Below, piece by piece: positions 2,416 through 23,720 of a stretch of 25,453 nucleotides of DNA. This stretch comes from a virus, in IMG/VR virus record IMGVR_UViG_3300036715_000784, positions 1-25,453 of that record; one strand, written 5' to 3'. A model generated the notes under the pieces. It saw only the letters and a list, made by a program, of their open reading frames with translations, was not told where the DNA came from and searched no databases. Every line of letters starts with the position of its first letter. The first letter of the stretch is position 1. The position numbers and the translations under genes are program-made.

Positions 2416-2706
2416 ATGAGGTCCAAGGATGACAGCGATGGGATCAGCGGCACGGGCGGCACGGGCGGCGGCCCTGCTGTCCTCCGACGGCAGTACATCG
2501 CCGTGACTTGGGAGTGGCCTTCCAATGTCGCAAATCCGTCCAGCTTTGAGGTTGCGATCTACACGGGCGCGGACCCCACCGCCACGGACACTTATGTGGT
2601 TCCTCTGAAGAAGTGCCTGGGCACGGATATGCGCTTACAGGTGACCGTCTCACCATCCACCAATCTGACGAACATCAGTGCGGCTGTGAGGGCATTGTAT
2701 GAGTAG
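2416..2706 (+). CDS. Small fibronectin-III-like tail protein
   Basis: A 96-residue protein. A Gly-rich stretch (GTGGTGGGPAV) at residues 12-22 leads into beta-strand-like sequence (YIAVTWEWP, SFEVAIYTG, MRLQVTVSP, ISAAVRALYE) that fits most of one FnIII domain. It begins 9 nt after the stop of the J-like gene and overlaps the next gene by 8 nt. It could be an independent small tail protein or the broken-off end of the J-like protein, since the J-like protein ends in what looks like the first strand of the same domain. No close family is recognised. Confidence 0.6.
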   Translation: MRSKDDSDGISGTGGTGGGPAVLRRQYIAVTWEWPSNVANPSSFEVAIYTGADPTATDTYVVPLKKCLGTDMRLQVTVSPSTNLTNISAAVRALYE

Positions 2707-5700
2707 CTCACCCTGGTCCACCAGTTCTGCCTCTGGAACCGCCACGGCATTGTCCACGGATCTGGCAACGGGGGCGGCTGTCGCCGCAGCTCAGACCGCC
2801 GCGAATAATGCTCAGGCTGCGGCTAATGCAGCACTTGACGGTCTCTCTATCATCATCTCGGACAATACCTTAAGCCCTGTCGAAAAATCCGCCGTAGTGT
2901 TGGACTACATGAACATTACGAATGAGCAGGCCGGGATTGATGCTCAAGCAGACGCTTACGCCGTGAGCCGCACGGCCTATGACACTTCCGTCTCGGCTCT
3001 GACCTCCTACCTCGGAACACTCACGGGCTGGAATGTCATTCCCGGCTCGGGCGTGACCATTGATGGCCCAACCTTCCGGCAGAAGTTTGCCGATGTGTAC
3101 TCCACTCGTCAGGCGCTTCTGAATGCGATCTATGCGAAGGCTAAGGCTCTGGCTGATGCGGCACAAGCCACGGGGAATAGCGCACAGACCGCCGCGAATA
3201 ATGCTCAGACAGCCGCGAATAACGCACAGACCGCAGCTAACACAGCGAACACAGCTCTCGCCAACATTGCCTCAGACAACATTCTCAGTCCTGGTGAGAA
3301 GCCTGCCGTAGTCCTCGACTACACCAACATCACGAATGAGCAATCCGGGATTGATGCTCAGGCTGGTGCCTTCACTTGCACAGCGGTTGATGCAGCTAAG
3401 GGGCCTTACGACACTGCCGTCTCATCACTGACCTCCTATCTGGGCACACTTACGGGTTGGAACGTCATCCCTGGTTCTGATGTAGCCATCGTGGGAACCA
3501 CCTTCAGACAGAAGTTTGCCGATGTGTACTCCACTCGTCAGGCCCTTCTGAATGCGATCTATGCCAGGGCCAAGGCGCTTGCAGATGCGGCGCAGTCTGG
3601 CGTCAACACCATCAACGACCCCGACACCCTCACCGTCGGTGAGAAGCCTCAGATCATCCTGGATTACAACGCGATCACGGGCGAGAACGCGGACCTCGTG
3701 GCGAAGGCCAATGCCTACAGCGTGGACCACTCCACCTATGACACGGCCTATTCCGCGCTGCTATCTTATCTGTCCACCCTCACCAGTCCCACGGCCTGGA
3801 ACTCCCTCAGCGGAACCACATCGCTTGGAACTGGCAACCGTGTGGCCTTGTGGAATCCGAAATGGGCCGCCGTAAAGAATGCCGCCTCCGATCTACGTAA
3901 CGCCATTGCGGCTGGAGCTGGGCAGAAGGCGATCAGCACGGCAGCGACGGACGCCAGCACCAAGGCCAACGCCGCACAACTCGCGTCCCAGCCACATCAG
4001 GTGGCGTGGGCCTATGCGTCCAAGCCAGCGCTTCCGAGTGCGCTCTATCCCGCAGGTTACTACGCGATCACCACGGACGCCCGCACGGTGCAGGTGAACG
4101 CGGCAGGCACGGCGTGGACGGATGTGCTGGTGGCGGCGACGGGGGTTTTCGGACAGTTCTTTACGAAGCAGCTTGTGGTAATGAACTTCGACAATCTGAT
4201 CCCAAACCCCAATAGTGAGCTGGATCTTACGAACATGCCGGTCGGGAGCTATGAGGGCGCTGGGGTTGTCACCGCATCGGACTATGGACTTTCGGCACGG
4301 TCAGGAACAAAGGTTCGACTCGTCCAAAGCTCCCAAGTGCCCTTGTGGCTTACGGATTTCATCCCGTGTGGTGTTGGCGACCAGTTTTACTTCGAGGGAT
4401 ACGCCATTCCCATAGATGTAGCCGGGCAGCGGATAGACTTCTTCGTGGTTTTCTTCGGCGCCGACAAAGTTACGGAATTGGCGTATCCGATGGGGTCTAC
4501 CTATGCGCCTGGCAATGTGTGGAGCAAGGTGTCCGTAGCGTCAACACCAGCTCCGGCAGGTGCGCTTTATGTTCGGTTTGCCGCTCAGACCTACTCGACC
4601 ACCACCAGATACCTCATTGACGATCTATATGCCCGCCGAATGGCCGACGCCTCCATGATCGTGGATGGCACTCTCCAAGCCCTCGTGGTGAAGACCCCGC
4701 TGCTCTACTCGCTGGACATCCGGAGCGGGTCGAACGCGAGCGGGTACCAGGCGGGCACAAATAGCTCGGCACCCGTCGGGTTCAGGATCAGCGCGACACC
4801 GTTCCCCACTTCTTACCTCGGTGCCTCTGGCCAGGATGCCACCCTAGTTCAAATGGAGCTTGGTGCTGGCATCAATATCGCAGGCTATAAATTGTCTGGC
4901 CTGACTGCCCGTTCCATGAGCGCCATCGGTGACAATTTGCAGACCGGAATGTCCTTTCGATGCTTCTACCGTGGGAGCAATGACCCTGGTACCAGGGGCG
5001 GACGCCCCAACATCTCTCGGCTCACCATCACGCCAACGCTCTACCAGACGGACACCACCTACACGGGACGCCTCGATCTCAAGCTGGCACCAAGTTCATA
5101 CACGGATAATTTGGATGGGCTCTCCTACGCCAAGATCGAGTTATTCAGCCAGTCCGCCGCCGGCACAACGGCCACGCTGACCGCACAGGGTGTCTACTAT
5201 TGCACACTGCCAGATCGGATCTACTACAACCCAACGAGTGATTCAGATCCCGGGAACGCGTCCTATGCGACCCAGGTTATTGCCGAGGCTGCGCTGCCAG
5301 GATTCCCGGCATGCAAGGTCACGCTCTACGGCGTGGCGGGATCGAGCGATACCCACTGTTTCTATTCGGCGTCCGGGTGGAATGTTGGGACTGCGCTCAC
5401 GGACAACGGCACAGCTTGGCCGTCAGGTATCACGGGGTCAACGGGTGGCGGAACTGGCGGTGGCACGGGCGGTGGAGGTGCCTGTCCAGACCCCAATGTG
5501 CCTTTGCTCATGGCCGATGGCACCGAGAAGCCTGCTGGTGTTATCCGTGTTGGTGACCGTGTTGTAGCCTGGGACGAAGACGCAGGGTGCGAATGCGTGG
5601 AGGAAGTCACGAGCGCAGTTATGAGCACAAACCACCGCTGGCTGCTTGTTCTTTCCAACGGGCGCACGGGCAAGTTCGCCTCCAATCACCGATTCCTGCT

Positions 5701-5878
5701 TAGTGACGGACATTGGCAAGAAATACAGCACCTAGTCCCCGGCGATGTGCTAACGAACGGCCTAGTTGTAGAATCCGCACGGGCCGACGTTTACGGGCCT
5801 GTCGTCAAGATCACCGTCAACCGAGTCCACACTTACATCACGCTGGGTGTGGTATCCCACAATGTGAAGCCCCAATAG
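2699..5878 (+). CDS. Repeat-containing tail/fibre protein with C-terminal Hint domain
   Basis: A 1059-residue protein. Residues ~20-55 and ~160-190 are Ala/Asn/Gln-rich (AQTAANNAQTAAN), likely coiled coil. Three tandem modules of about 110-140 residues follow, each opening with D-N-x-L-S-P-x-E-K-like sequence and LDY-x-x-IT-x-E; the first two are near-identical around TFRQKFADVYSTRQALLNAIYA. The middle (about 480-910) looks like beta-rich carbohydrate-binding or fibre sequence. After a Gly/Thr linker (~913-927) comes a complete Hint fold: Cys929, VRVGDRVVAWD-like block A, SNHRF block B, and VHTYITLGVVSHN at the end with His1054-Asn1055, followed by only four residues. Hint domains self-cleave through a thioester at the first Cys. 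The late position, after the J-like gene, fits a central fibre or tip protein. Confidence 0.8.
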   Translation: MSSSPWSTSSASGTATALSTDLATGAAVAAAQTAANNAQAAANAALDGLSIIISDNTLSPVEKSAVVLDYMNITNEQAGIDAQADAYAVSRTAYDTSVSALTSYLGTLTGWNVIPGSGVTIDGPTFRQKFADVYSTRQALLNAIYAKAKALADAAQATGNSAQTAANNAQTAANNAQTAANTANTALANIASDNILSPGEKPAVVLDYTNITNEQSGIDAQAGAFTCTAVDAAKGPYDTAVSSLTSYLGTLTGWNVIPGSDVAIVGTTFRQKFADVYSTRQALLNAIYARAKALADAAQSGVNTINDPDTLTVGEKPQIILDYNAITGENADLVAKANAYSVDHSTYDTAYSALLSYLSTLTSPTAWNSLSGTTSLGTGNRVALWNPKWAAVKNAASDLRNAIAAGAGQKAISTAATDASTKANAAQLASQPHQVAWAYASKPALPSALYPAGYYAITTDARTVQVNAAGTAWTDVLVAATGVFGQFFTKQLVVMNFDNLIPNPNSELDLTNMPVGSYEGAGVVTASDYGLSARSGTKVRLVQSSQVPLWLTDFIPCGVGDQFYFEGYAIPIDVAGQRIDFFVVFFGADKVTELAYPMGSTYAPGNVWSKVSVASTPAPAGALYVRFAAQTYSTTTRYLIDDLYARRMADASMIVDGTLQALVVKTPLLYSLDIRSGSNASGYQAGTNSSAPVGFRISATPFPTSYLGASGQDATLVQMELGAGINIAGYKLSGLTARSMSAIGDNLQTGMSFRCFYRGSNDPGTRGGRPNISRLTITPTLYQTDTTYTGRLDLKLAPSSYTDNLDGLSYAKIELFSQSAAGTTATLTAQGVYYCTLPDRIYYNPTSDSDPGNASYATQVIAEAALPGFPACKVTLYGVAGSSDTHCFYSASGWNVGTALTDNGTAWPSGITGSTGGGTGGGTGGGGACPDPNVPLLMADGTEKPAGVIRVGDRVVAWDEDAGCECVEEVTSAVMSTNHRWLLVLSNGRTGKFASNHRFLLSDGHWQEIQHLVPGDVLTNGLVVESARADVYGPVVKITVNRVHTYITLGVVSHNVKPQ
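3080..3565 (+). repeat. Pair of near-identical 57-bp direct repeats inside the tail gene
   Basis: Bases 3080-3136 and 3509-3565 match with one visible difference (a G/C change in the middle of the GCNCTT stretch). They are 429 bp apart and encode the same segment of two adjacent protein repeats. The near-identity at DNA level, including silent positions, implies a recent duplication or gene conversion. Recombination between them would delete one repeat module in frame, since 429 is a multiple of three. Confidence 0.8.
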
Positions 5879-6436: not shown

Positions 6437-6826
6437 ATGGGGGCAGAGTTCGAGACCTACGCGATGCGGGGACTGGTGGCTGTGCTGGGGGCGGCCCTCT
6501 CCGCCTTCATTTGGCGGGAGGTCACCTCCAAGGACAAACTGTGGAGGGCGGTCAATCAGAACCGGATGGACCATGAAGCCGCGTTGAAAGAAGCGCGGGA
6601 CAGTTTCACCCGCGCCCTGGAGCGTGTGGCCGACCAGTTCCGCCTGTCCATTGACTCACTGAACGACACCATCGGAAGCCTCAGCGCCACCGTGTCTAAG
6701 CTCGATAGTACGATGGCCCGAGATTACGCCACCAAGGATGACTTGCGGGAAACGCGGAACGAACTACGCACGGAGATCCAGTACCATACAGAGAACTGCC
6801 CGCTGAAATATGGAGGTGACCGATGA
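6437..6826 (+). CDS. Membrane-anchored coiled-coil protein of the lysis region
   Basis: A 129-residue protein with one hydrophobic N-terminal segment (about residues 10-26, GLVAVLGAALSAFIW) followed by a long charged helix with heptad character (residues ~40-115) and a short C-terminal tail with a single Cys. This topology is common in phage lysis regions (Bdr/XhlA-like or holin-accessory proteins), but no family is recognised. A GAGG box lies about 6 nt before the ATG. The stop overlaps the next start (ATGA). The 97-nt gap upstream holds no gene. Confidence 0.65.
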   Translation: MGAEFETYAMRGLVAVLGAALSAFIWREVTSKDKLWRAVNQNRMDHEAALKEARDSFTRALERVADQFRLSIDSLNDTIGSLSATVSKLDSTMARDYATKDDLRETRNELRTEIQYHTENCPLKYGGDR

Positions 6827-7203
6827 ACCTGAACTTCAGCCAGTCCACCGGCATGGTGACCAGGGATGACGGCGCACACGTTGGCCAGGGATGGGCTGGG
6901 AATGGGGAGGGCAAGTGCAACCCCGCCATGCAGCACGTCCACAACGTGGGGCCGCTACCCCAGGGCATCTACCGCCTCGGCCCTTGGCAGAACCATCCCC
7001 ACCTGGGACGGATGGTGGCGCCCCTGACCCAGATCACCGGGGAGACCTTCGGGCGGGACGGCTTCTTCATCCACGGGCCGAGCATGGACCCCGCCCGCCG
7101 AGGCCAGGAGTCCCAGGGGTGCTGCGTGGTTCCTTTCGCCGGGCGACTGAAGATCCACGACCTCACACCCGGCCCCGATGACACACTGACGGTGACACCA
7201 TGA
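6823..7203 (+). CDS. DUF2778 (Tlde1-like) protein, candidate endolysin
   Basis: A 126-residue protein. It has the DUF2778 signature: an N-terminal beta hairpin with GKCNPAMQHVHNVGPLPQGIY, then IHGPSMDPARRGQESQGCCVV, where the His (HGPS) and the Ser-x-Gly-Cys segment are the expected active-site residues of the L,D-transpeptidase-like fold. The founding member of this family, Tlde1, is a type VI secretion effector that cleaves or exchanges peptidoglycan cross-links. Here the gene sits between a membrane protein and a holin-like gene, where a phage endolysin is expected, and no other lysin is seen. Function as lysin is therefore inferred. A strong GGAGG precedes the ATG. Confidence 0.75.
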   Translation: MNLNFSQSTGMVTRDDGAHVGQGWAGNGEGKCNPAMQHVHNVGPLPQGIYRLGPWQNHPHLGRMVAPLTQITGETFGRDGFFIHGPSMDPARRGQESQGCCVVPFAGRLKIHDLTPGPDDTLTVTP

Positions 7204-8227: not shown

Positions 8228-8259
8228 CGCCCGGCTCATTGTGGGCCGGGCGTTTTCTT
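8228..8259 (+). terminator. Rho-independent terminator closing the late operon
   Basis: A perfect 8-bp stem CGCCCGGC (8228-8235) / GCCGGGCG (8245-8252) with a 9-nt loop is followed directly by TTTTCTT. It lies 62 nt after the spanin-like stop and separates the late genes from the early promoter. Confidence 0.9.
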
Positions 8260-8274: not shown

Positions 8275-8290
8275 TGTGATAAAGATCACA
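8275..8290 (+). promoter_or_regulatory. CRP-type palindrome upstream of the early promoter
   Basis: TGTGA-N6-TCACA, both half sites perfect against the E. coli CRP consensus. The centre (8282.5) is 57.5 bp upstream of the first base of the -10 box at 8340, so about -70 from the predicted start, near the class I activator positions. The same element with the same spacing recurs at 13720-13735. Confidence 0.7.
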
Positions 8291-8317
8291 ATGTGTGGAG
8301 CGATGATCAATAAAGTG

Positions 8318-8345
8318 TTGCGTCCTGGCCAACGGCACCTAAACT
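8318..8345 (+). promoter_or_regulatory. Early promoter 1
   Basis: -35 TTGCGT (8318-8323), 16-bp spacer, -10 TAAACT (8340-8345). The -35 is weak, which suits activation from the CRP-type site. The sequence after the -10, ACTGAA, is shared with the two other promoters of this region (11547 and 13785). It would drive the Cro-like, YqaJ and RecT genes. Confidence 0.65.
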
Positions 8346-8359
8346 GAAAGCATGGACTA

Positions 8360-8377
8360 GCGGCCAACACAGGCCGC
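8360..8377 (+). promoter_or_regulatory. GCGGCC inverted repeat just downstream of promoter 1
   Basis: GCGGCC (8360-8365) and GGCCGC (8372-8377) flank a 6-nt spacer. They lie about 8 nt after the predicted transcription start and upstream of the HTH gene. It could be an operator for that protein or a 5' hairpin in the mRNA; the sequence does not decide. Confidence 0.4.
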
Positions 8378-8393
8378 CAACATGGAGTCAGGA

Positions 8394-8612
8394 ATGGACC
8401 AACCCACCCTCAACAACTTTGGAGCCTGGATTCAGGCGTACGGGGTGCGGGCTCTCGCCCGGCGCCTCGGCGTAGATCCAAGCGCCGTGACCAACTGGAA
8501 GAAGGGCCGGACCCAGCCAACGCTGGACCACGCCGCCGAAATCCTCAAACTGGCGAAGGGCAAGTTGAAGCCTAGCGATCTGAAGAAGGCGGTGAAAGTT
8601 GGCCCAGCCTAA
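8394..8612 (+). CDS. Cro-like helix-turn-helix regulator
   Basis: A 72-residue protein. The segment RALARRLGVDPSAVTNWKKG (about residues 19-38) is a canonical HTH, and the rest (PTLDHAAEILKLAKGKL) completes a small Cro/YdaS-type fold. The ATG at 8394 is preferred over 8382 because GGAG at 8384-8387 sits at proper spacing. It is the first gene after promoter 1 and probably represses that promoter. No partner CI-type repressor gene is visible, which is odd for a temperate phage and suggests the repressor lies elsewhere or is unrecognised. Confidence 0.8.
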   Translation: MDQPTLNNFGAWIQAYGVRALARRLGVDPSAVTNWKKGRTQPTLDHAAEILKLAKGKLKPSDLKKAVKVGPA

Positions 8613-8730
8613 GAAGCCCATTCTCCGTCGGCACCAAGAACACCCCACCACCCCGCCTCGGTCCTTCCCGCATGAGCGCGAAGCCGTGGCCTACGCCAGC
8701 AAAACGCTGGAGATTGAGGTTGAGCGATGA
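8599..8730 (+). CDS. Possible small coupled ORF (TTG start)
   Basis: A 43-residue basic, Pro-rich frame (starts LAQPKKPILRRHQEH) begins at a TTG overlapping the end of the Cro-like gene and ends in a TGA that overlaps the ATG of the YqaJ gene (ATGA). It fills the only gap between the two genes, as expected for a coupled small gene. The start is non-ATG and the ribosome site is weak (AAGG), so this may be chance. No family recognised. Confidence 0.4.
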   Translation: MAQPKKPILRRHQEHPTTPPRSFPHEREAVAYASKTLEIEVER

Positions 8731-9770
8731 GCAATGAACTGATGATGAAGGCCACGGCATCCGCCACGACCTCCGTGTTAGGCGCCATGGAGGCCCCGAC
8801 CGAGGAGACCATGGAACAGCGCCGCAAAAGATGGCTGGATGATCGCCGGAAGGCCATCAGTGCCACCGACCTAGCCAAGATCCTCGGCCTCTCCCCGAAA
8901 TCCTGGGGCGGCCCGATGAGCGTGTGGCTTGCCAAGACTGGAGCCCTCATGGATGAGGACTTCGTGATGAGCGAGGAGATGGAGATGGGCCTCGAACTGG
9001 AGGAGACCATCCTCCGGGTCTACGCCAAGCGCACGGGGCACGAAATCGTCCGCGCTGACCCCTATGACTTCCGCAAGGTGCCGGGTTCCGACATCCTCGG
9101 CGCCTCCTTCGATGCCCGCCGCGCAGGGGGTGACCACCGCCCGGTGGACGCCAAGAATGTGGGTTACTGCGATCCCTCAAAGGGCTGGGGAGAGCCGGGG
9201 ACCGATCAGATCACCAAGGGCTACCTTGTCCAACTCCATGTGCAGATGATGGTGGACACCGCGCCCTACGCGGACCTCGCCGTCCTCGAACGGGGCCAGA
9301 AGTTCCGGTGCTATGAGGTCGAGGCCGACCTGGAGCTTCACGCCTTCTTCAAGGAGGCCGCCGAGAGTTTCTGGCTCAACCATGTGATCGCGGACATCCC
9401 GCCCGAAGTGGACGGCTCCGATGATTGGGGCCACTACCTGGGGAAGATGGCGCAGGCCACCAAGGCGGTCAAAGACCCCACCCCTGAGCAACTGGAGGAG
9501 GCGAAGCGCCTCTTTGAAATCCGCACCACCATGGCGGCCCTGGACGAGGAGCAGAAGGCCATCGAGAACCGCCTGAAGCAAGCCATTGGGGAAGCCTCCG
9601 GCCTCAAGGGCATCGCCACTTGGAATCAAACCAAGGGGCGCGTCACCACCCGCTGGGAGGAACTGGCCCGCAAGCACATCCACGAAAAAGACCTCGAGCG
9701 CCTCATCCCCGAGTTCACGGCGGCTGGCAACGGCTACCGCACCTTCCGCTTCAACTTCAAAGGAGAATGA
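8727..9770 (+). CDS. YqaJ-family phage exonuclease
   Basis: A 347-residue protein. The N-terminal third carries the YqaJ hallmark RRKAISATDLAKILGLSP, followed by GLELEETILRVYAKRTGHE. Acidic metal ligands fit in GLELEE, GASFDARR and PVDAKNV (the PD-(D/E)xK core), and YLVQLHVQM is the usual glutamine helix. Such enzymes digest one DNA strand from double-strand ends and hand the single strand to an annealase, here the RecT gene 3 nt downstream. The C-terminal ~110 residues form a coiled-coil extension with a terminal beta part. Translation is coupled through ATGA with the small ORF upstream. Confidence 0.9.
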   Translation: MSNELMMKATASATTSVLGAMEAPTEETMEQRRKRWLDDRRKAISATDLAKILGLSPKSWGGPMSVWLAKTGALMDEDFVMSEEMEMGLELEETILRVYAKRTGHEIVRADPYDFRKVPGSDILGASFDARRAGGDHRPVDAKNVGYCDPSKGWGEPGTDQITKGYLVQLHVQMMVDTAPYADLAVLERGQKFRCYEVEADLELHAFFKEAAESFWLNHVIADIPPEVDGSDDWGHYLGKMAQATKAVKDPTPEQLEEAKRLFEIRTTMAALDEEQKAIENRLKQAIGEASGLKGIATWNQTKGRVTTRWEELARKHIHEKDLERLIPEFTAAGNGYRTFRFNFKGE

Positions 9771-9772
9771 CC

Positions 9773-10753
9773 ATGGCCGAAACCATGACCCCCGCCGCCA
9801 GGGCCAAGAGCCCCATCCACCAACTCCAGGAGCTTCTGGAGAGCCGCAAGGGCGCCCTCGCCGCGCTCCTCCCGCGCCACCTGACCGCCGACCGCCTGAT
9901 GAAGGTCGCCATCAACGCCGCCAGCCGCAACCCGCTCATTCTGAAATGCACCCCGGCCTCCGTGGTCAAGGCGGTGATGCAGGGTGCCGAGCTTGGTTTG
10001 GAGGTGGGCTCCGCGCTTGGCGAGTATTACTTGGTCCCGTTCAAGAACAACAAGACCGGGAACTACGAGGCGCAGGGCATCCCCGGCTACCGGGGCCTCA
10101 TCTCCCTGGCCCGCCGCACGGGCGAAATCGCCATGATCTTCGCCGCCGTGGTGAAGGACGGCGATGAGTTCACCTACCAGTTGGGCTCTGACCCCCTCCT
10201 CATCCACCGCCCGAACCTGGACGCCGATGAGAACGCGCCCGTGAAGTGGGTCTACGCCGTGGCGAAGCTCAAGGACGGCTCCACGCAGTTCGAGGTGATG
10301 AGCCGCAAGGCGGCAGAGGGCATCCGCTCCCGCTCCCGCGCTGGGCAGAGTGGCCCATGGGTCACCGATTGGAACGAGATGGCGAAGAAGACCGTCATCA
10401 AGCGCCTGACCAAATACCTCCCCCTCTCCGTGGAACTTGCCAAGGCCCTGGAGGTGGACAACAAGGTCGATGGCTTCCCCCCCATGCCTGGGGAGGTGGT
10501 CATTGACGCCCCGGACGAACTGGACCACCAGATCGCCGGAGCCCTCGGCATGGACTCGGTGGAAGATGCCCAGCCGGAAGGACCCAAGGGCAACGCCGAC
10601 CTGAAGGCCTCCCTCAAGGGCTCCAAGAAGCCCGCCAAGGGTGCCGAGCAGGAATCGGAGGTGCCCCACGCCGGAGCCGGGCACGGTGTAGACGCCCCGC
10701 CCGAGCAGGAGGCTACGCCCGCCGGGAGCCCGGAATGGTTGCCTATCGACTGA
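9773..10753 (+). CDS. recT: RecT-family single-strand annealing protein
   Basis: A 326-residue protein. The RecT core is clear: PLILKCTPASVVKAVMQGAE-type helix, then GLEVGSALGEYYLVPF, GIPGYRGLISLARRTG and AVYAVAKLKDG, ending in EMAKKTVIKRLTKYLPLS. RecT proteins anneal complementary single strands during phage replication and repair. The C-terminal ~60 residues are low-complexity (Lys/Pro/Glu/Gly). The ATG at 9773 is chosen for AGGAG at 9761-9765; the ATG at 9767 is too close to that site. It pairs functionally with the YqaJ exonuclease. Confidence 0.92.
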   Translation: MAETMTPAARAKSPIHQLQELLESRKGALAALLPRHLTADRLMKVAINAASRNPLILKCTPASVVKAVMQGAELGLEVGSALGEYYLVPFKNNKTGNYEAQGIPGYRGLISLARRTGEIAMIFAAVVKDGDEFTYQLGSDPLLIHRPNLDADENAPVKWVYAVAKLKDGSTQFEVMSRKAAEGIRSRSRAGQSGPWVTDWNEMAKKTVIKRLTKYLPLSVELAKALEVDNKVDGFPPMPGEVVIDAPDELDHQIAGALGMDSVEDAQPEGPKGNADLKASLKGSKKPAKGAEQESEVPHAGAGHGVDAPPEQEATPAGSPEWLPID

Positions 10754-10766
10754 TCCCGCCATGATG

Positions 10767-10799
10767 ACGGCCCTGGGGACCACCAACCCCCAGGGCCGT
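10767..10799 (+). terminator. Strong 12-bp hairpin after recT
   Basis: ACGGCCCTGGGG (10767-10778) pairs perfectly with CCCCAGGGCCGT (10788-10799) across a 9-nt loop. There is no T-tract (TTCC follows), so it may be a weak terminator, an mRNA 3' stabiliser or a partial attenuator between recT and the next gene, whose AAGGAGG box begins a few bases later. Confidence 0.6.
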
Positions 10800-10815
10800 T
10801 CCAGAAGGAGGAGCC

Positions 10816-11085
10816 ATGCACGATGAAACACAAGACCTCCCGCTGTTCCAGCTGGCTGACCCCAAGGTCCGGGGCACAGAGGAGGAACCACGCCTCTCGC
10901 GCCAGTGTCAGGCGATCCTGGCTCGGCTAAAAGAAGGCCCGGCCAGCAATTCAGACCTCATGCAGATCGCCCAGCGCTTCGGTGCCCGCATCCACGACCT
11001 CCGGGGCGCAGGCTACACCATCGAGATTCTGAGCCGTGACCGCGTGACGGGCGTGACCACCTACGCCTTGGAGCCACGACCATGA
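10816..11085 (+). CDS. Small helix-turn-helix (winged-helix-like) protein
   Basis: An 89-residue protein. Residues ~25-65 (LSRQCQAILARLKEGPASNSDLMQIAQRFGARIHDLRGAGY in outline) match the small phage winged-helix domain in which two helices are followed by R-I-x-D-L-R-x-x-G and a beta wing (TIEILSRDRVTGVTTYAL). It probably binds DNA. A strong AAGGAGGAG precedes the ATG, and the stop overlaps the rusA-like start. Confidence 0.75.
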   Translation: MHDETQDLPLFQLADPKVRGTEEEPRLSRQCQAILARLKEGPASNSDLMQIAQRFGARIHDLRGAGYTIEILSRDRVTGVTTYALEPRP

Positions 11086-11528
11086 CCTGGACCCTCATCA
11101 TCCCCAAGGTCCCGCCCAGCGGGAATGTCATCAAGCGCATGGCGTGGCCGGTGTACGGTCGGCTCATGCATGAGTGGTTCTGGCTGATCCGGGCGGCGCC
11201 GGGATTCGTGGACATCCCCAAGGCCGGGTGCAGGCGTCGGCTGACCCTGACCCGGTTCGGTCGTGGCACCCTTGACCGCGACAACCTCTATGCCAGCATG
11301 AAGCCGGTGATTGATGTCCTTCGCCCCCCGAAGCATGAGGAGGGCTACTACAAGACCGGCAAGAAGGCAGGCCAGTATTGGAGCCGACGGCGCATCGGCC
11401 ACGGATTGATCCTGGAGGATGACACCGCCCACCTGGACCTGATCGTGGTGCAGCACCCGCTGTGCAAGGGAGAGAAGCCCCACCTGTGGGTGATCCTGGA
11501 GGACGCCCCGCTGGGAAAAGGGGGTTGA
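11082..11528 (+). CDS. rusA: RusA-like Holliday junction resolvase
   Basis: A 148-residue protein. The RusA signature is present: PPSGN near the N-terminus, L-D-R-D-N at residues 64-68, then KPVIDVL and a late GLILEDD (Asp113-114), giving the acidic cluster that binds Mg2+. RusA dimers cut four-way junctions after recombination. It sits downstream of the exonuclease/annealase pair as expected. Longer than E. coli RusA (120 residues), with an insert of basic residues at 84-104. Confidence 0.85.
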   Translation: MTWTLIIPKVPPSGNVIKRMAWPVYGRLMHEWFWLIRAAPGFVDIPKAGCRRRLTLTRFGRGTLDRDNLYASMKPVIDVLRPPKHEEGYYKTGKKAGQYWSRRRIGHGLILEDDTAHLDLIVVQHPLCKGEKPHLWVILEDAPLGKGG

Positions 11529-11552
11529 CGCAAGGCGGCAATCTCCTAAACT
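11525..11552 (+). promoter_or_regulatory. Promoter 2 (no CRP-type site)
   Basis: -35 TTGACG (11525-11530), 16-bp spacer, -10 TAAACT (11547-11552), followed by ACTGAAAA as in promoter 1. The -35 is nearly consensus. At the position where promoters 1 and 3 carry the CRP-type palindrome (around 11489.5) nothing similar is present. The -35 overlaps the stop codon of the rusA-like gene. Confidence 0.7.
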
Positions 11553-11604
11553 GAAAAGACCGGGCCTGAATCGCGCAGGATGCCCCGGATGAGTTCACGA
11601 CATC

Positions 11605-11664
11605 CCCCCCGCTGGTGACCGGACAGACCGCAAGGTGTTCCGGACGCGACCACCAGCGAGGGGG
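11605..11664 (+). ncRNA. Structured leader RNA element
   Basis: Within the 154-nt gene-free leader after promoter 2, CCCCC-CGCTGGTG (11605-11617) pairs with CACCAGCG-A-GGGGG (11651-11664), 13 bp with one bulged A. Inside lie CCGGA/TCCGG and an apical ACC-GCAA-GGT with a GNRA tetraloop. The element begins about 45 nt after the predicted transcription start. It could be an antitermination, attenuation or mRNA-stability element. No T-tract follows. Confidence 0.5.
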
Positions 11665-11682
11665 CCTTTGCCCGGAGCGGGC

Positions 11683-11763
11683 ATGAAACAGAAAGAACTA
11701 GCATCACGGGTGGAATCCCTGGGGTGGATCTACGCGATGCGCGGATCGAAAGGATGGCGCTGA
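11683..11763 (+). CDS. Possible 26-residue HicA-N-terminus-like peptide
   Basis: A short frame with GGAG at 5-nt spacing before its ATG; its TGA overlaps the next ATG by one base. The sequence (KELASRVESLGW, then MRGSKG) resembles the first helix and the G-W-x-x-x-R-x-x-G-S region of HicA toxins, but the rest of HicA is absent. It may be a coupling leader peptide. Low confidence because of length. Confidence 0.35.
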   Translation: MKQKELASRVESLGWIYAMRGSKGWR

Positions 11764-12755
11764 TGGCACGGTGCAGGATGGACCGACCTGAGCGGGCCGA
11801 TTATTTCCGCATCTTCTCCAGACATATGCTCATGGATGAGGACTACGAGAACCTGAGCCGTGAGGAATGGGGCTCCGTTTTCCTCCTCATGCTCCACCAA
11901 TGGGCCAAGGGCGGCACCCTGCCCGATGACCGCCGGAAGTTGGCTGGGCTGGCCCGATGCACCCCGGATGAACTGGATGACCTGCTGGCGAAGTGGCCGA
12001 AGCTGGAGCCAGTCACCGGCCAGCCGGGGAGGACCGGCATCCCCTACTTGGTCAGGGAATGGGATCAGGTGATGAGTTTCTACGAGGAGCAGAGGAACCG
12101 TGGTAAAGCCTCCGCTGAAGCGCGGGGGCGGAAATCGGGGGCGCCGGACGAGCCGAACCCCAACCATGGTTCGAACCATGGTTCAACCGCCGGTTCAACC
12201 GCCGGTTCAACCAACCAAGACCAAGACCAAGACCAAGACCAAGACCAAGACCAAGACCAAGACCAAGACCAAGACAAAAAGAAAACTACTACCGCGACCC
12301 GCAAGCGGGCCTCGGCGCAAAGGGCCGGTGAGTCCCTGGAGGAGATTCTGAGGGGTGGGAAAGGAACCCCGTACTGGGAAGCCTACTGGAAACTCTCAGG
12401 CACTTTCGGCGGCCAGCCCAAGAACCCCGCCCCCAAGACCACGGCCAAGCTCTACATGAGCGCCACCGTGGGCTACCACCCGGATCACATACAGGAACGG
12501 GCGGAGGCTCTGCGGGCGTCCATCAGCGAGGTCCGGTTCATGCCTCAACTCCAGAAGTGGCTGGAGGGCCAGGGGTATGCCACCCCGGACCTCCCTGCCC
12601 CTCCCCCCCATCCTCAAGGAGCCAAACATGGATCTGCGACCCATCGCCACGCGATGCGCGATGCCGCCCTCAAAGCCCAACTCAGTGACGCCGGAGCCCA
12701 CACCCTGCCCGGTCTGCAAGATCCCGATGTGGCCAGACCGGAAGAACCCTGGTGA
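11763..12755 (+). CDS. DUF1376-like phage replication-region protein
   Basis: A 330-residue protein. Residues 5-105 (ADYFRIFSRHMLMDEDYENL, GSVFLLMLHQWAKGGTLPDD, LAGLARCTPDELDDLL) match the DUF1376 helical domain found next to phage helicase loaders. A disordered linker with ten Asp-Gln pairs follows (CCAAGA repeats), then a second domain (about 190-290) with YWEAYWKLSGTFGGQPKNPA. The start at 11763 is chosen for AAAGGA at 11749-11754 and the overlap with the preceding TGA; GTG at 11724 and ATG at 11754 lack a suitable site. The 3' end overlaps the next gene by about 128 nt, which is unusually long. Confidence 0.75.
   Translation: MARCRMDRPERADYFRIFSRHMLMDEDYENLSREEWGSVFLLMLHQWAKGGTLPDDRRKLAGLARCTPDELDDLLAKWPKLEPVTGQPGRTGIPYLVREWDQVMSFYEEQRNRGKASAEARGRKSGAPDEPNPNHGSNHGSTAGSTAGSTNQDQDQDQDQDQDQDQDQDQDKKKTTTATRKRASAQRAGESLEEILRGGKGTPYWEAYWKLSGTFGGQPKNPAPKTTAKLYMSATVGYHPDHIQERAEALRASISEVRFMPQLQKWLEGQGYATPDLPAPPPHPQGAKHGSATHRHAMRDAALKAQLSDAGAHTLPGLQDPDVARPEEPW
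12215..12274 (+). repeat. CCAAGA hexanucleotide tandem repeat, ten copies
   Basis: Ten perfect CCAAGA units encode an Asp-Gln run inside the linker of the DUF1376-like protein. Just upstream are two GGTTCAACCGCC copies and two ATGGTTC copies. The six-base unit means slippage would lengthen or shorten the linker without a frameshift. Confidence 0.95.
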
Positions 12756-13458
12756 ACTGGTCTGCGGCTACTGCCAGGAGCAAGCATGGCTGGCAAAGCG
12801 CAAGGCTGAACACCTGGAGAAGATCGGCGCATGGAGTTGGGGCGTCTGCATGGATGCCGGTATGAGTCCCCGCGAGGCCCGGTCGGAAGTCGGGAAGATC
12901 CCGGTGGAAATCAAGCGGGCTCTCCCCATCGAGGCCGTCAAGTTCATGCTGGAGGGCAAGCCGCCCAAGGCGGGATTCGGCATCGGGGGCGAGGGCACGG
13001 GCGTCGGCAAGACATCCGCGATGGCCGCGATCCTCCGAGCGCACTTACAGGCGCGGGAAGTGGCCCGCGTGAACGAGGGCGGAGAACCCAACCCCTGCCC
13101 AGGGGCCGCCGGTCTCCACTGGCGATCCTGGCCGTCTACCGTGGCTCTCATCAGGTCTCGGGCAACCGTGGACGGGTTCGTGGAGACCACTGTGAGTGAC
13201 ATGATCCAGGCCGACATCCTGTTCCTGGACGACCTCGGATCGGAACGCATCAAGGGTTCCTATGTGGAGGACTTCGCCGCCTCCCAACTGGATGTCGTGG
13301 TTGATGAGCGCTACCGCCGGGAGGCACCGACCTTCTACACCACCAACCTGAACATGAGCGGCCTAATTGAGTTCTATGGCGCCCGCCTCGTCAGCCGCCT
13401 CTGCGGCGACAACCCGCTGGTCATCGTGACCGGCCTCAAGGATCAGAGGTTCAAGTGA
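12628..13458 (+). CDS. DnaC-like replicative helicase loader (AAA+ ATPase)
   Basis: A 276-residue protein. An N-terminal zinc-binding motif (C27-P-V-C30, C46-G-Y-C49) is followed by an AAA+ core: Walker A GEGTGVGKT (121-129), Walker B ILFLDDLGSE (197-206), sensor TTN (238-240) and a probable arginine finger in ARLVSRL (about 252-258). DnaC/DnaI proteins place the replicative helicase on DNA; in phages they recruit the host helicase to the phage origin. The ATG at 12628 has AAGGAG about 8 nt upstream, though it lies within the previous gene. No phage helicase is seen nearby, so host DnaB is the probable partner. Confidence 0.88.
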   Translation: MDLRPIATRCAMPPSKPNSVTPEPTPCPVCKIPMWPDRKNPGELVCGYCQEQAWLAKRKAEHLEKIGAWSWGVCMDAGMSPREARSEVGKIPVEIKRALPIEAVKFMLEGKPPKAGFGIGGEGTGVGKTSAMAAILRAHLQAREVARVNEGGEPNPCPGAAGLHWRSWPSTVALIRSRATVDGFVETTVSDMIQADILFLDDLGSERIKGSYVEDFAASQLDVVVDERYRREAPTFYTTNLNMSGLIEFYGARLVSRLCGDNPLVIVTGLKDQRFK

Positions 13459-13724
13459 CCAACTCCCCGATCGAACCCCCGCTGGATGAGCCCGAGGCAT
13501 ACGGGTGGAGCCCTCCTAACATGGCGGAAGATGACTTCCATGTCCCGCCCGATCTGGTCCCCCACTACCGGCAGTTCCGTCCTGGCTATTGGGGCTATGT
13601 CTGCCCATCGTGCAATTGCGTGTTAGCCCCCGGCTGGGGGCCGAACATACCCGAGCAGTTCCGGGCGCATATCCGCCCCCACCTGGAAGGGAAGGGATGC
13701 TTCCTAAACCCAAAGAAGATGTGA
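13455..13724 (+). CDS. Small zinc-finger-like phage protein
   Basis: An 89-residue protein from a GTG overlapping the loader stop (GTGA). It has C-P-S-C-N-C in the middle (YVCPSCNCVLAP) and a His pair in RAHIRPHLEGKGC, consistent with one zinc site. Function unknown. Its stop codon is part of the CRP-type palindrome at 13720-13735, so the operon ends exactly where the next regulatory region begins. Confidence 0.7.
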   Translation: MTNSPIEPPLDEPEAYGWSPPNMAEDDFHVPPDLVPHYRQFRPGYWGYVCPSCNCVLAPGWGPNIPEQFRAHIRPHLEGKGCFLNPKKM

Positions 13725-13735
13725 CGAATATCACA
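13720..13735 (+). promoter_or_regulatory. Second CRP-type palindrome
   Basis: TGTGA-N6-TCACA with perfect half sites, overlapping the stop codon of the upstream gene. Its centre (13727.5) is 57.5 bp upstream of the -10 at 13785, the same distance as at promoter 1. The N6 spacers of the two sites differ (TAAAGA versus CGAATA), so this is not a simple duplication. Confidence 0.7.
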
Positions 13736-13761
13736 CTTCGCAGAAAAACACGGTTTGGGGG

Positions 13762-13790
13762 TTGATTACCAGTCAATAGTGGCCGATACT
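13762..13790 (+). promoter_or_regulatory. Promoter 3
   Basis: -35 TTGATT (13762-13767), 17-bp spacer, -10 GATACT (13785-13790), followed by GAAC, sharing the ACTGAA context of promoters 1 and 2. It would drive the small-gene operon from 13812 onward. Confidence 0.65.
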
Positions 13791-18197: not shown

Positions 18198-18279
18198 AAG
18201 GATTGCTCGACTATCCTCGAAGCCAAAATGCGGAAAGCAGCTAACCTCCCCAAGTAGCGCCTATCCATCTGGAGGAACC

Positions 18280-18681
18280 ATGACGATCCACCCCGCAAAT
18301 ACGCCGGTGGAAGGCGGGTCCAGCCCGGAGAAGTTTATGCCGAACACTGACCCCGAAACAGCCCAGGTCTTAGCCGATGTCCTCGACGCACTGGAGGTCT
18401 TAGGCGATGCCCTAGACACGCTGGAGAAGGAGCGAAAGTCGAAAGGCTGGATTCCCTGCGCTGATCGCCTCCCCGAGAAGGGTCAGGAAGTGCTGATCTA
18501 CCTGGATGAGAACGAAGGCGGGATGCTCGAACTTGGATACACCAGCCTCATCACCATCGCCATTTACACCGGGGAAGGTGATGAGTGGTCCCGTGATTGG
18601 GAAGCCGATGCCAATGCGCCCATCGAGGACGGTTGCCAGCCGACCCACTGGATGCCCCTCCCTGAACCCCCGACCGTCTAA
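18280..18681 (+). CDS. Cassette gene C, DUF551 protein
   Basis: A 133-residue protein. The N-terminal half is an acidic helix (TAQVLADVLDALEVLGDALD). The second half has the DUF551 pattern: WIPCADRLPEKGQEVLIYL and, at the end, PTHWMPLPEPP. DUF551 proteins are small phage and prophage proteins of unknown function. A strong GGAGG stands before the ATG. The TAA lies in the left core of site 4. Confidence 0.8.
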   Translation: MTIHPANTPVEGGSSPEKFMPNTDPETAQVLADVLDALEVLGDALDTLEKERKSKGWIPCADRLPEKGQEVLIYLDENEGGMLELGYTSLITIAIYTGEGDEWSRDWEADANAPIEDGCQPTHWMPLPEPPTV

Positions 18682-18694
18682 CAAACACCAAGCT
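18676..18694 (+). repeat. attC-like site 4, left half
   Basis: GTCTAAC then AAACACCAAGCT, which closely matches the left half of site 10 (GCCTAACAAACCAAGCT). The right half is absent here; a matching right half lies at 19514-19542, after three genes without attC sites. Confidence 0.6.
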
Positions 18695-18717
18695 GTAGAT
18701 GCCCAGAGGCACCCCAC

Positions 18718-18948
18718 ATGACTGACCTTTCAACCCTCGAACAATGCCTGCTGACCTGTGATGCCCCCGAGTCCGTATGGCGTCCCGCCCTGGATTCCCT
18801 GCGGGATGACTTGGAACAAGCCAGGAAGGACAACGCCAGCGCCTTCGACCTGATCTCCCGTATCAGGTTTGCCCTTGGCGACAACGGTAAGCGGATGCAG
18901 GACGAACTGATCGAGTACTGCAAGGAACTGGCGGCGAGGACGGCATGA
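18718..18948 (+). CDS. Small hypothetical protein
   Basis: A 76-residue acidic helical protein (ESVWRPALDSLRDDLEQARKD). It is the first of three genes lying between the separated attC halves 4 and 6; its stop overlaps the next start (ATGA). No family recognised. Confidence 0.6.
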   Translation: MTDLSTLEQCLLTCDAPESVWRPALDSLRDDLEQARKDNASAFDLISRIRFALGDNGKRMQDELIEYCKELAARTA

Positions 18949-19139
18949 GCCAGCTTTCTCGCGATGTTTACCGGTGTATCGGAACGACCTGCGGCAAGCG
19001 CGATACCTGCGCCTGTTTCATGGACTGTGAGGCAGACGATGGCAGGGGGCTTGGACACCTCATCTTTGCCGACCTGAGCCCCACAGCACCGCCGTTCTAC
19101 TGCCCGTTCTTCATCGAAAATCCACCAATGTCCACCTAG
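18945..19139 (+). CDS. Small cysteine-rich protein
   Basis: A 64-residue protein with six cysteines in the first half and middle (YRCIGTTCGKRDTCACFMDC) and a later YCPFF, suggesting a metal site. ATGA coupling to the upstream gene. Function unknown. Confidence 0.6.
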   Translation: MSQLSRDVYRCIGTTCGKRDTCACFMDCEADDGRGLGHLIFADLSPTAPPFYCPFFIENPPMST

Positions 19140-19146
19140 TGGAACC

Positions 19147-19479
19147 ATGAAGCGTCGATTCGGCCCATCCCCCGCAGGATATATCACATGGCATGACTGG
19201 GCAGAGGCTCAGATCAAGGCTGGGAACAAGCAGCGGAAGTGCCCAAAATGCCTCCGCTGGTTCTTCCCCTCCGAAAAGCACGACGAAGAAAACTGCTCTC
19301 AACTCCGAGAACATGCACAGCCCCAAGGGCCCGGGTCGAGCAAATGCCCATGGTGTGGTGGTCCTGCCGACAACGGGCATGACCACAGCATCACGCCGAA
19401 TACCAACCTGTGCTCGAAATGCGCCAGTTCAGATCGAGCCAAGCGAAACCTCGAATACAACCTGCTAATGGAGCAGTGA
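19147..19479 (+). CDS. Zinc-ribbon protein
   Basis: A 110-residue protein with C-P-K-C (residues ~32-35), C-P-W-C and C-S-K-C pairs plus His residues, predicting two zinc ribbons. The first segment (HDWAEAQIKAGNKQRKCPKC) is typical of phage and island zinc-ribbon proteins. It begins 7 nt after the upstream gene. Probably nucleic-acid or protein binding. Confidence 0.65.
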   Translation: MKRRFGPSPAGYITWHDWAEAQIKAGNKQRKCPKCLRWFFPSEKHDEENCSQLREHAQPQGPGSSKCPWCGGPADNGHDHSITPNTNLCSKCASSDRAKRNLEYNLLMEQ

Positions 19480-19496
19480 CGCATGAAAGGAGAAGC

Positions 19497-19811
19497 ATGA
19501 GAGAGGAAGATGACAACGTCCGACTTGAGCGACAGGTTAGGCGCTTGACGGACGATGAATGCGACGTGTTTCGAAGGATGCCCCTCAGCTTCAACGATAT
19601 GGTGAGAGCTATTTTTGAGGCTGGCAGGGCTGAGGAACGGGAACGCTACACGGCGCGGGAGGCCCACCTACAAACGCGCATCAACAAACTGGAGAAGTTC
19701 ATCTGCCACAGCGGAGGATTGACCAACGAGTGGGCCAAAACTTGTCCGTTCGGAACAAAGATGACAGACCACATCAAAGGCAAACTCTATGAATGGTTGA
19801 AGCGTAATTGA
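19497..19811 (+). CDS. Cassette gene D, hypothetical coiled-coil protein
   Basis: A 104-residue protein with AAAGGAG before the ATG. Residues ~6-17 are encoded by the attC right half (frame RQVRR as in genes B and F). The centre is an Arg/Glu-rich helix (FEAGRAEERERYTAREAHL), and there are two Cys in the last third. An internal ATG at 19578 is a possible alternative start. The TGA lies just before the left core of site 7. Confidence 0.6.
   Translation: MREEDDNVRLERQVRRLTDDECDVFRRMPLSFNDMVRAIFEAGRAEERERYTAREAHLQTRINKLEKFICHSGGLTNEWAKTCPFGTKMTDHIKGKLYEWLKRN
19514..19542 (+). repeat. attC-like site 6, right half
   Basis: CAACGTCCGACTTGAGCG then GTTAGGC (19536-19542). The start repeats the right half of site 2 (CAACGTCCGAGT). 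No matching left half is found directly upstream; the left half at 18676 is the best partner. Confidence 0.6.
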
Positions 19812-19813
19812 GC

Positions 19814-19870
19814 GCCTAACGACCCAAGCTCGGCGGCCCCAACGGGGTCCGCTGGAACGACTGGTTAGGG
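19814..19870 (+). repeat. attC-like site 7 (complete, 57 bp)
   Basis: Left core GCCTAAC (19814-19820), right core GTTAGGG (19864-19870; last base departs from Y). The centre GCGGCCCC-AAC-GGGGTCCGC forms an 8-bp stem with one extrahelical T. Length and layout are those of a compact integron attC site. Confidence 0.85.
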
Positions 19871-19897
19871 CGATCAACCAACAAAAGGAGAACCACG

Positions 19898-19981
19898 AGA
19901 AACACGAAATTCATCATCTTCGATAAGCGCGGAACAGTGATTGAGAGACACCCAACCCAACTCCACGGATCGAACCCATGA
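19898..19981 (+). CDS. Possible 28-residue peptide (ACG start)
   Basis: AAAAGGAGAACC is followed by ACG AGA AAC ACG AAA TTC; the frame reads TRNTKFIIFDKRGTVIERHP and ends in a TGA overlapping ATG 19978 (ATGA). It may be a small leader gene whose ATG mutated to ACG, or use a rare start. Low confidence. Confidence 0.3.
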   Translation, partial: RNTKFIIFDKRGTVIERHPTQLHGSNP

Positions 19982-20007
19982 CCCGAACCACCAAGAAGGA
20001 AACTCCG

Positions 20008-20736
20008 ATGACGTTGCAACGATATACCCCCGCAAAGCTCCAGACCGTCTTGGCTAATCACAAGAAATGGCTTGCGGGTGACGAAGACTCCAGGGCGGAC
20101 CTTTATGGGGCCGATCTCTCCGGTGTCGATCTCACCGGGTCGGATCTCGCCGGTGCCGACATCTCTGACGCGGACCTTTCCGGTGCGAACCTCACAAAGG
20201 CGATACTCGCCGGGGCGAACCTCCACGGCACAGACCTCGCAGGTGCGAATCTCACCGGAGCGAACCTCGACATGGTAAACCTTACCGATGCTGATCTCTA
20301 TGGCGCGAACCTTGCCAGGACGAGCCTCTACGGTGCAGGCCTGGCTGGGGCGAAACTGGCCGGTGCGAACCTCTCCGGGGCGAATCTCGATGAGGCGGAC
20401 CTCGCCGGGGCCGATCTCTCCGGAGCGAATCTTGTCGGGGCGAAACTCACCGGTGCAAGATACGAGGACCTGAAACTGGCCGCAGTCGTGGTGCTCACAG
20501 GTCTCTACAAGTACCAATGCTGGGCTGCGGTCAGTGTTGACGGCGCGCCCTACGTGCTCATGGGATGCCTCTTCCACTCAGTGGATGAGTGGGACGCCAT
20601 CGGCATCCGCAATAGCAACCCCAGCGAGTTCCCTGATGACGGTAGCGCGAAATCTGAGGAGCGCGTGGCGGCCTTTGAGTTTGTGCGGGCCAAGGCGCTA
20701 CGTATGGCTGAGGCACACAGGAAGGAGATGTCATGA
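20008..20736 (+). CDS. Cassette gene E, pentapeptide-repeat protein
   Basis: A 242-residue protein. After an N-terminal helix (YTPAKLQTVLANHKKWLAG) come about 25 A-(D/N)-L-x-x pentapeptides (residues ~28-150), predicting a right-handed beta-helix. The C-terminal ~90 residues form a separate domain (AAVSVDGAPYVLMGCLFHSVDEW). Members such as Qnr or MfpA mimic DNA and protect gyrase, but most are of unknown role. The ATG at 20008 has AAGAAGGAAA upstream; ATG 19978 is an alternative supported by overlap with the small frame above. Confidence 0.8.
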   Translation: MTLQRYTPAKLQTVLANHKKWLAGDEDSRADLYGADLSGVDLTGSDLAGADISDADLSGANLTKAILAGANLHGTDLAGANLTGANLDMVNLTDADLYGANLARTSLYGAGLAGAKLAGANLSGANLDEADLAGADLSGANLVGAKLTGARYEDLKLAAVVVLTGLYKYQCWAAVSVDGAPYVLMGCLFHSVDEWDAIGIRNSNPSEFPDDGSAKSEERVAAFEFVRAKALRMAEAHRKEMS

Positions 20737-20789
20737 CTCCCCGCGCCTCTGAGTACAGATCGGGCGAGATGACGAACTAGAACGCACCC

Positions 20790-20822
20790 GAGGCAGGGTC
20801 CGAGTGCAGCGCCCGGTTAGGC
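20790..20822 (+). repeat. attC-like site 8, right half
   Basis: GGCAGGGTCCGAGTGCAGCG then CCCGGTTAGGC, right core 20816-20822. It is nearly identical to the right half of site 1. The left half between 20737 and 20789 is degenerate (GCCTCTGAGTAC at the expected place). The 106 nt from 20737 hold no gene. Confidence 0.65.
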
Positions 20823-20842
20823 GCAAGCGTGAAAGGGACGAT

Positions 20843-21079
20843 ATGAGCAAGTCCATTTATTCATGCGTTGTTGAAGGCGATCCACTTTGCGACGACGCAC
20901 CAGTTGCACGAAGGCTGCTGCTAGACGCGCACCAGAACCTGAAAGACTTGAGCGAAATACTGGGAGCCATCAAGAACCGTGAGGACGAGGAATGTGATCT
21001 TGGGTATCTGATTGGCCAGGTGGAAGCGGCCAGATCTATCCTCGCCACCCACATCACCACGGACTATCGAACGACCTAG
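20843..21079 (+). CDS. Cassette gene F, hypothetical
   Basis: A 78-residue protein (MSKSIYSCVVEGDPLCDD, then a helix LLLDAHQNLKDLSEILGAIK). AGGG sits upstream of ATG 20843. The frame continues upstream through the attC right core (RPVRR) to a GTG at 20804, so an attC-borne start is possible. The TAG lies in the left core of site 9. No family recognised. Confidence 0.6.
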   Translation: MSKSIYSCVVEGDPLCDDAPVARRLLLDAHQNLKDLSEILGAIKNREDEECDLGYLIGQVEAARSILATHITTDYRTT

Positions 21080-21129
21080 CTCCCGAGTTCAGCGGCCCCA
21101 ACGGGGTCTACTGGGACGACGGGTTAGGC
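21074..21129 (+). repeat. attC-like site 9 (complete, 56 bp)
   Basis: Left core ACCTAGC (one change from RYYYAAC), right core GTTAGGC (21123-21129). The central CGGCCCCAACGGGGTC is identical to that of site 7, and so is the following CTGG-AACGAC-like right arm. Sites 7 and 9 are a closely related pair. Confidence 0.8.
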
Positions 21130-21155
21130 GCGGGATGAAAACAAAAGGAGAAGAC

Positions 21156-21320
21156 ATGGATGAGTGGGAATGCCTGAAGGAAATCCTGGAATATTCGATC
21201 AAGAAGAACGGCGACAAGCCTCTAACTACGAAGCACCTACTTGCCATGATGAACATGGCTGAACGCAAAGCGGAGCGGGATAGTTATCTGGATCTGGTCG
21301 GCATGGGGTCGGATGATTGA
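21156..21320 (+). CDS. Cassette gene G, small hypothetical
   Basis: A 54-residue acidic-basic helical protein (WECLKEILEYSIKKNGDKPL, LLAMMNMAERKAERD). AAAGGAG precedes the ATG by 5 nt. It fills the cassette between sites 9 and 10 with no other ORF. Confidence 0.65.
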   Translation: MDEWECLKEILEYSIKKNGDKPLTTKHLLAMMNMAERKAERDSYLDLVGMGSDD

Positions 21321-21321
21321 C

Positions 21322-21421
21322 GCCTAACAAACCAAGCTAACCGGTCCCGCCGTGGGCCTGAAGGGACGACATGGACCAGAACACACCTGAGGCAGGGCCC
21401 GAGTCGAATGACGGGTTAGGC
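21322..21421 (+). repeat. attC-like site 10 (complete, 100 bp)
   Basis: Left core GCCTAAC (21322-21328), right core GTTAGGC (21415-21421). The left arm AACCGGTCCCGCC is complementary, with mismatches, to the right arm GGCAGGGCCCGAG. The ATG of gene H lies in the loop. Confidence 0.8.
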
Positions 21422-21625
21422 GCGGCCTCGCCATGCACCTGCCTTGCCTGCATACAGACCCACGATCTTCGAGTGGACGGAATCCCGTTGAATTTGGCCC
21501 GCATGATTGTGTGCCCGATCTGTGGGGACAAACGGTGCGTCCATGCGAAGGACCATAGCGCGCCTTGCGCCAAATCCGATATTTACGCGCATAACCTGTG
21601 GGTCGAGAAGTATATCAACGACTAA
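21371..21625 (+). CDS. Cassette gene H, small zinc-binding protein
   Basis: An 84-residue protein with C-x-C-x-x-C near the start (SPCTCLACIQTHD) and C-P-I-C-G-D-K-R-C-V-H-A, a pattern common in small phage and island proteins. The start ATG is inside attC site 10; no downstream ATG preserves the first Cys cluster. The TAA falls in the core of site 11. Confidence 0.65.
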   Translation: MDQNTPEAGPESNDGLGAASPCTCLACIQTHDLRVDGIPLNLARMIVCPICGDKRCVHAKDHSAPCAKSDIYAHNLWVEKYIND

Positions 21626-21657
21626 CACCCGAGCTAACCGGCCCCGCCCGGTAGCTC
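21620..21657 (+). repeat. attC-like site 11, truncated, with hairpin
   Basis: Left core GACTAAC (second base departs from Y), then CCGAGCTAACCGG as in sites 3 and 10. Instead of a right half there is GAGCTA-A-CCGG (21631-21641) pairing with CCGG-TAGCTC (21648-21657), a 10-bp stem with one bulged A. It ends 12 bp before the integrase stop and could also act as a two-way terminator. Confidence 0.55.
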
Positions 21658-21669
21658 GATTGAAACCAT

Positions 21670-23678: not shown

Positions 23679-23679
23679 A

Positions 23680-23701: not shown

Positions 23702-23720
23702 GCCTTGGGCGACCTCGGCC

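Follow-up and report, generated by a model that had tools for sequence, protein, structure and literature searches.

Conserved CRP-type palindromes upstream of two predicted early promoters in a phage lineage as candidate sites for a host activator

Introduction

Can a phage lineage place its early promoters under a metabolic regulator of its host? Few cases are documented in which a metabolic activator of the host directly controls the early promoters of a phage. The question is raised by a 25,453-base IMG/VR virus record (the window, analysed here over its whole length), for which it was predicted from sequence that two CRP-type palindromes stand at identical spacing from two phage promoters, close to class I CRP positions. 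Here we ask whether the palindromes are functional, how they are placed relative to the promoters, and which protein is likely to read them.

Results

Two CRP-type palindromes precede predicted promoters with weak -35 elements

A scan of the whole window finds exactly two matches to TGTGA-N6-TCACA. They lie where the original prediction had placed them and are the sole exact matches in 25.4 kb.

8275..8290, no strand: site 1, CRP-type palindrome TGTGA-TAAAGA-TCACA (sequence TGTGATAAAGATCACA); arms unchanged in 11/11 related loci
13720..13735, no strand: site 2, CRP-type palindrome TGTGA-CGAATA-TCACA (sequence TGTGACGAATATCACA); arms unchanged in 5/5 related loci

Under a first-order Markov model the window is expected to hold 0.019 copies of this motif, with a probability of two or more of about 1.7e-4, which is a fair figure here because the CRP arm was fixed beforehand by the literature; 5-6-5 inverted repeats of whatever sequence number 39 in the window. 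The left arm of site 2 includes the stop codon of the open reading frame at 13455-13724.

Downstream of each palindrome lies a predicted sigma70-like promoter (P1 and P2), and a third predicted promoter (P3), which has no upstream palindrome, serves for comparison.

8318..8345, + strand: predicted promoter P1; -35 TTGCGT (8318-8323), 16-bp spacer, -10 TAAACT (8340-8345)
13762..13790, + strand: predicted promoter P2; -35 TTGATT (13762-13767), 17-bp spacer (16 in relatives), -10 GATACT (13785-13790)
11525..11552, + strand: predicted promoter P3; TTGACG-N16-TAAACT

The -35 element matches the consensus at three of six positions in P1, four in P2 and five in P3. Neither P1 nor P2 passes a strict consensus promoter scan of the window, as is expected of activated promoters. 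P3 is kept in six relatives, in two of which its -10 element reads TAGACT. A weak -35 element with a palindrome at P1 and P2, as against a good one without a palindrome at P3, fits activator dependence.

The genes and neighbouring elements that matter for the argument are the following.

8228..8259, + strand: rho-independent-type terminator, stem CGCCCGGC / GCCGGGCG, T-rich tail (read in the sequence)
8394..8612, + strand: small HTH protein (P22 Cro / YdaS-like), first gene after P1 (Pfam HTH_3, E 1.2e-8, scanned as 8382-8612)
8727..9770, + strand: YqaJ/RecE-like exonuclease (Pfam YqaJ 2e-18, phrog_434 6e-56)
9767..10753, + strand: RecT-like annealing protein (Pfam RecT 2.8e-48)
10816-11085: small winged-helix protein
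12625..13458, + strand: DnaC-like helicase loader, upstream of P2 (phrog_50 1.4e-26)
13455-13724: 89-aa open reading frame between the DnaC-like loader and P2
13812..13997, + strand: 61-aa protein, first gene after P2, matching no family

P1 is followed by the genes for the HTH protein, the YqaJ/RecE-like exonuclease and the RecT-like protein, in this order, and P2 precedes the 61-aa gene and then more small genes. In two of the relatives (L045 and L047), no homologue of the 61-aa protein was found after P2. Lying directly ahead of site 1, the terminator ends the upstream lysis-side operon and parts its genes from P1. It is mostly invariant in nine distinct sequences, and it is unlisted by the hairpin and promoter scan because its loop exceeds 8 bases.

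The palindrome arms are conserved in related loci

Relatives of the P1 region were collected by a search with the HTH protein, which gave 11 close loci on 10 contigs, and relatives of the P2 region by a search with the DnaC-like protein, which gave five contigs. The palindrome stands at the matching place in every case (11/11 and 5/5), and its arms do not carry a single substitution. At site 1, the arms are unvaried across nine distinct sequences while the spacer varies at three of its six columns; at site 2, they are unvaried across five distinct sequences, with four variable spacer columns out of six. Taken together, 0/20 arm columns vary, compared with 7/12 spacer columns (Fisher p 2e-4) and 77/224 other columns (p 3e-4); these p values assume independent columns and, the sequences being kin, are a guide only. 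The relatives are all close and were drawn from few metagenomes, which leaves the conserved columns less than fully independent.

The -10 and -35 elements of both P1 and P2 are conserved as blocks. Around P1, the unvarying blocks are the terminator (for the most part), the palindrome arms, the -35 block AAAGTGTTGCG and the -10 block TAAACTGA, and the DNA between them drifts. Read from the alignment, this block-and-drift pattern is that of a regulated promoter.

One relative (G003, composed of L063 and L064; 37448 bases) has contig ends that overlap at 92% identity, and appears to wrap round a circularly permuted population of a phage of ~36 kb. Each site occurs once per ~36-kb genome in G003 when the repeated contig end is counted once. 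Searches for more distant relatives, using an HTH profile and a P2 DNA pattern free of the palindrome, returned the same small group, plus L050, L080 and a 27-residue match (L081).

These data bear on whether the palindromes are protein sites at all. It is hardly credible that they arose by chance, or that they act as RNA hairpins instead. Pairing of the 5-bp arms could give a weak hairpin (-3.0 to -4.3 kcal/mol), but in up to nine distinct variants the arms are held constant by sequence and not by compensating pairs, for which reason we rejected the hairpin reading; moreover, site 1 is immediately preceded by a terminator, downstream of which P1 starts. A chance origin is very unlikely because the arms are conserved, and two copies were found where 0.02 are expected. 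The alignments support the view that the arms are held by selection while the spacers drift, and that the palindromes are functional DNA.

The sites lie at class I-type distances from the -35 elements

In the window, the distance from the palindrome centre to the first base of the -10 element is 57.5 bp at both P1 and P2. The original prediction had started from this coincidence and proposed to look for the same spacing in related phages. Among the relatives the distance is 57.5 bp at P1 in 11/11 loci, and 56.5 bp at P2 in 5/5 (read from the alignment for L045 and L047), the difference at P2 being due to one extra base between the -35 and -10 elements of the window. The identical spacing is real in the window but does not extend to the P2 loci of the relatives, so that the two distances agree to within 1 bp and not exactly, and we dropped the exact coincidence as a constraint. 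The accompanying argument, that differing spacers imply a match kept by selection, holds in so far as the arms are invariant and the spacers vary; the equal distance to the -10 element is peculiar to the window.

What is fixed is the distance from the palindrome centre to the first base of the -35 element, at 35.5 bp (P1) and 34.5 bp (P2), with no indel in any relative. We take the lac CRP site, at -61.5, to lie 25.5 bp from the lac -35 element, which turns these distances into lac equivalents of -71.5 and -70.5. On the predicted promoters, both sites lie on the helix face that is characteristic of class I sites (-61.5, -71.5, -82.5 or equivalent), and the predicted nearness to a class I position is borne out. 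Counted from the -10 element alone, the sites fall near -69.5 and -68.5, and for this reason the '-70' of the original prediction looked only approximate.

The cooperativity between CRP and RNA polymerase in E. coli amounts to ~105 at -71.5, 83 at -72.5 and ~1 at -66.5, in constructs that the authors align by the CRP-to-35 spacing; -70.5 is not among the positions measured (PMC6301791). Measured from the -35 element, the palindromes appear to occupy a class I position from which CRP acts strongly.

A host CRP-family activator is the probable reader

At both sites and in all relatives, the TGTGA-N6-TCACA sequence of class I CRP-dependent promoters is present exactly, and P1 and P2 combine sigma70-type -10 and -35 elements with a weak -35. 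One feature points the other way: the 5' flanks of the palindromes are GG or TG and not A/T-rich, unlike the extended E. coli consensus. The window and five relatives yielded no cNMP-binding domain (PF00027), and G003 yielded no Crp-type HTH (PF13545). With no phage protein of the CRP or cNMP-domain type found, a host protein is the likeliest reader, and we consider it probable that this protein is a CRP-family activator.

A host regulator from outside the CRP/FNR family, with a similar palindrome, is a very improbable reader, given that the arms and the 6-bp spacing are the exact CRP consensus and that the position relative to the -35 element is that of CRP class I sites. We know of no other family with exactly this motif.

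The palindromes might also be operators of a phage protein that serves as early activator or autoregulator. The candidates are the Cro/YdaS-like HTH protein (8394-8612) and the winged-helix protein (10816-11085). A 16-bp palindrome has a size that phage Cro and CI proteins also use. Wherever a relative covers the two genes in question, both candidates are there, and the winged-helix protein shows 95-98% identity between relatives. However, the recognition helix of the HTH protein varies among relatives while the arms are constant: N, H or L occupies the position aligned with lambda Cro Lys32, and D, Y, H and K, M, N, T occur at other positions. On this ground the HTH protein was set back as a candidate, and it is unlikely to be the reader. 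The winged-helix protein is a possible reader. Homologues of the HTH protein and of the winged-helix protein also occur in records without the palindrome (L050 and L015, respectively). Furthermore, phage repressor operators usually overlap the promoter, whereas the sites in the window lie ~70 bp upstream. Overall, we regard a phage-encoded reader as unlikely.

Two further elements near P1 deserve mention in their own right. The block between the palindrome and the -35 element (8300-8317) varies with the type of HTH recognition helix, being GATGATCAA-like where the helix has Asn and of other sequence where it has His or Leu; it is a possible operator of the HTH protein. The predicted 5' leader of P1 contains a hairpin at 8363-8380 (GCGGCCAACACAGGCCGC in the window, -12.9 kcal/mol) with a stem that is largely kept in relatives; this hairpin may serve as a second operator or as a structure of the leader.

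A host CRP-family protein could also bind the sites and repress, so that the early genes are switched on when the signal falls. This would resemble phage T1, in which host cAMP-CRP inhibits the pir, dam and recE promoters (PMC6737242), and P1 likewise drives a recE-like gene. We consider repression quite improbable here. The sites lie well upstream of the -35 elements, where a bound dimer leaves the polymerase unblocked, and the weak -35 boxes of P1 and P2 are as found in activated promoters. In addition, even with ≤2 mismatches allowed, the T1 DNA directly preceding recE, pir and dam contains no match to TGTGA-N6-TCACA, so the T1 mode differs.

For activation by a host protein, we propose the following mechanism. 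Both palindromes would be operators of a transcription factor that the host encodes and that belongs to the CRP branch of the CRP/FNR family. A dimer bound ~35 bp upstream of the -35 element would contact the C-terminal domain of the alpha subunit (class I activation) and help RNA polymerase onto the two early promoters with weak -35 elements, of which P1 governs the recombination operon (HTH-YqaJ-RecT) and P2 the small early genes that come next. P3, with its near-consensus -35, would need no help. Early transcription would be tied to a host signal, which would be cAMP if the reader is a true CRP. Which protein reads the sites, that it activates and does not repress, and which signal it conveys are inferences.

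The palindromes lie outside the integrase segment

The integrase gene (21670-22851) lies within a segment (18271-25453), with pentapeptide and MazG-like genes, that recurs at 99.3% identity within a 55-kb phage contig (L066-L069) which is otherwise different. The idea that the integrase end consists of host flanking genes was dropped because the same segment lies inside that phage contig; its presence in both seems to be due to a recent exchange or else to chimeric assembly. Five close relatives, some of them fragmentary records, yielded no integrase. As the palindromes lie in the shared early region and not in the integrase module, they are better treated as a matter of early-gene control than of prophage control.

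Further observations concern the phage and its host. The YqaJ-RecT segment (8717-10595) is 97.5% identical to L003, compared with ~82-92% over most of the genome, which suggests recent exchange of the recombination genes. The large tail-fibre-like open reading frame at 2699-5878 has, to judge from its sequence alone, a C-terminal Hint/intein-type look (CPDPNVPLLMADGTEKPAGVIRVGDRVVAWD...VHTYITLGVVSHN) beside a Gly-rich linker. The lysis-side gene at 6823-7203 encodes a Tlde1/L,D-transpeptidase-like protein, which suggests a Gram-negative host. For a closer host link via RecT, a scan of genome contigs gave only relatives of 41-45% identity, and searches in the phyla of the two genomes concerned gave nothing closer; the matches of tail, capsid, integrase and MazG in phages and plasmids are all <60% identical. 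G008, a 55-kb phage, has DNA in common with the window and on that ground probably also the host; it is without a TGTGA-N6-TCACA site, which counts against a host CRP-family reader.

Discussion

It is quite possible, though we stop short of calling it probable, that in this phage lineage the early operons for recombination and replication are hard-wired to a nutrient-sensing activator of the host through class I sites at two promoters, with a cAMP-type signal, and not a lysis/lysogeny regulator, gating early transcription. Control of a phage by host CRP is known from T1, as repression; what is new here are two conserved consensus sites of class I type on early operons. A phage group with two such conserved sites offers a simple, portable test of whether the carbon or energy state of the host sets the timing of early genes. 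The analysis also illustrates that metagenomic variants of a phage suffice by themselves for reading promoter footprints.

The class I promoters of E. coli, namely lac (-61.5) and the engineered -71.5 series (PMC6301791), share with the window the consensus arms and a single dimer site upstream of a weak -35 element. They differ in that the sites in the window belong to a phage, are known as sequence, and have 5' flanks that are not A/T-rich. T1, in which the control by host cAMP-CRP works through pir (PMC6737242), resembles the proposed reading in that host CRP regulates phage genes, among them a recE-like gene. The T1 case is one of repression, whereas the window has two consensus sites in an activator-type position; a pir-like gene was not recognised in the window. 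In phage lambda, lysogenisation is affected by cya and crp, largely indirectly. The likeness lies in the influence of host cAMP-CRP on the phage life cycle, and the difference in that the sites in the window sit on the phage promoters themselves.
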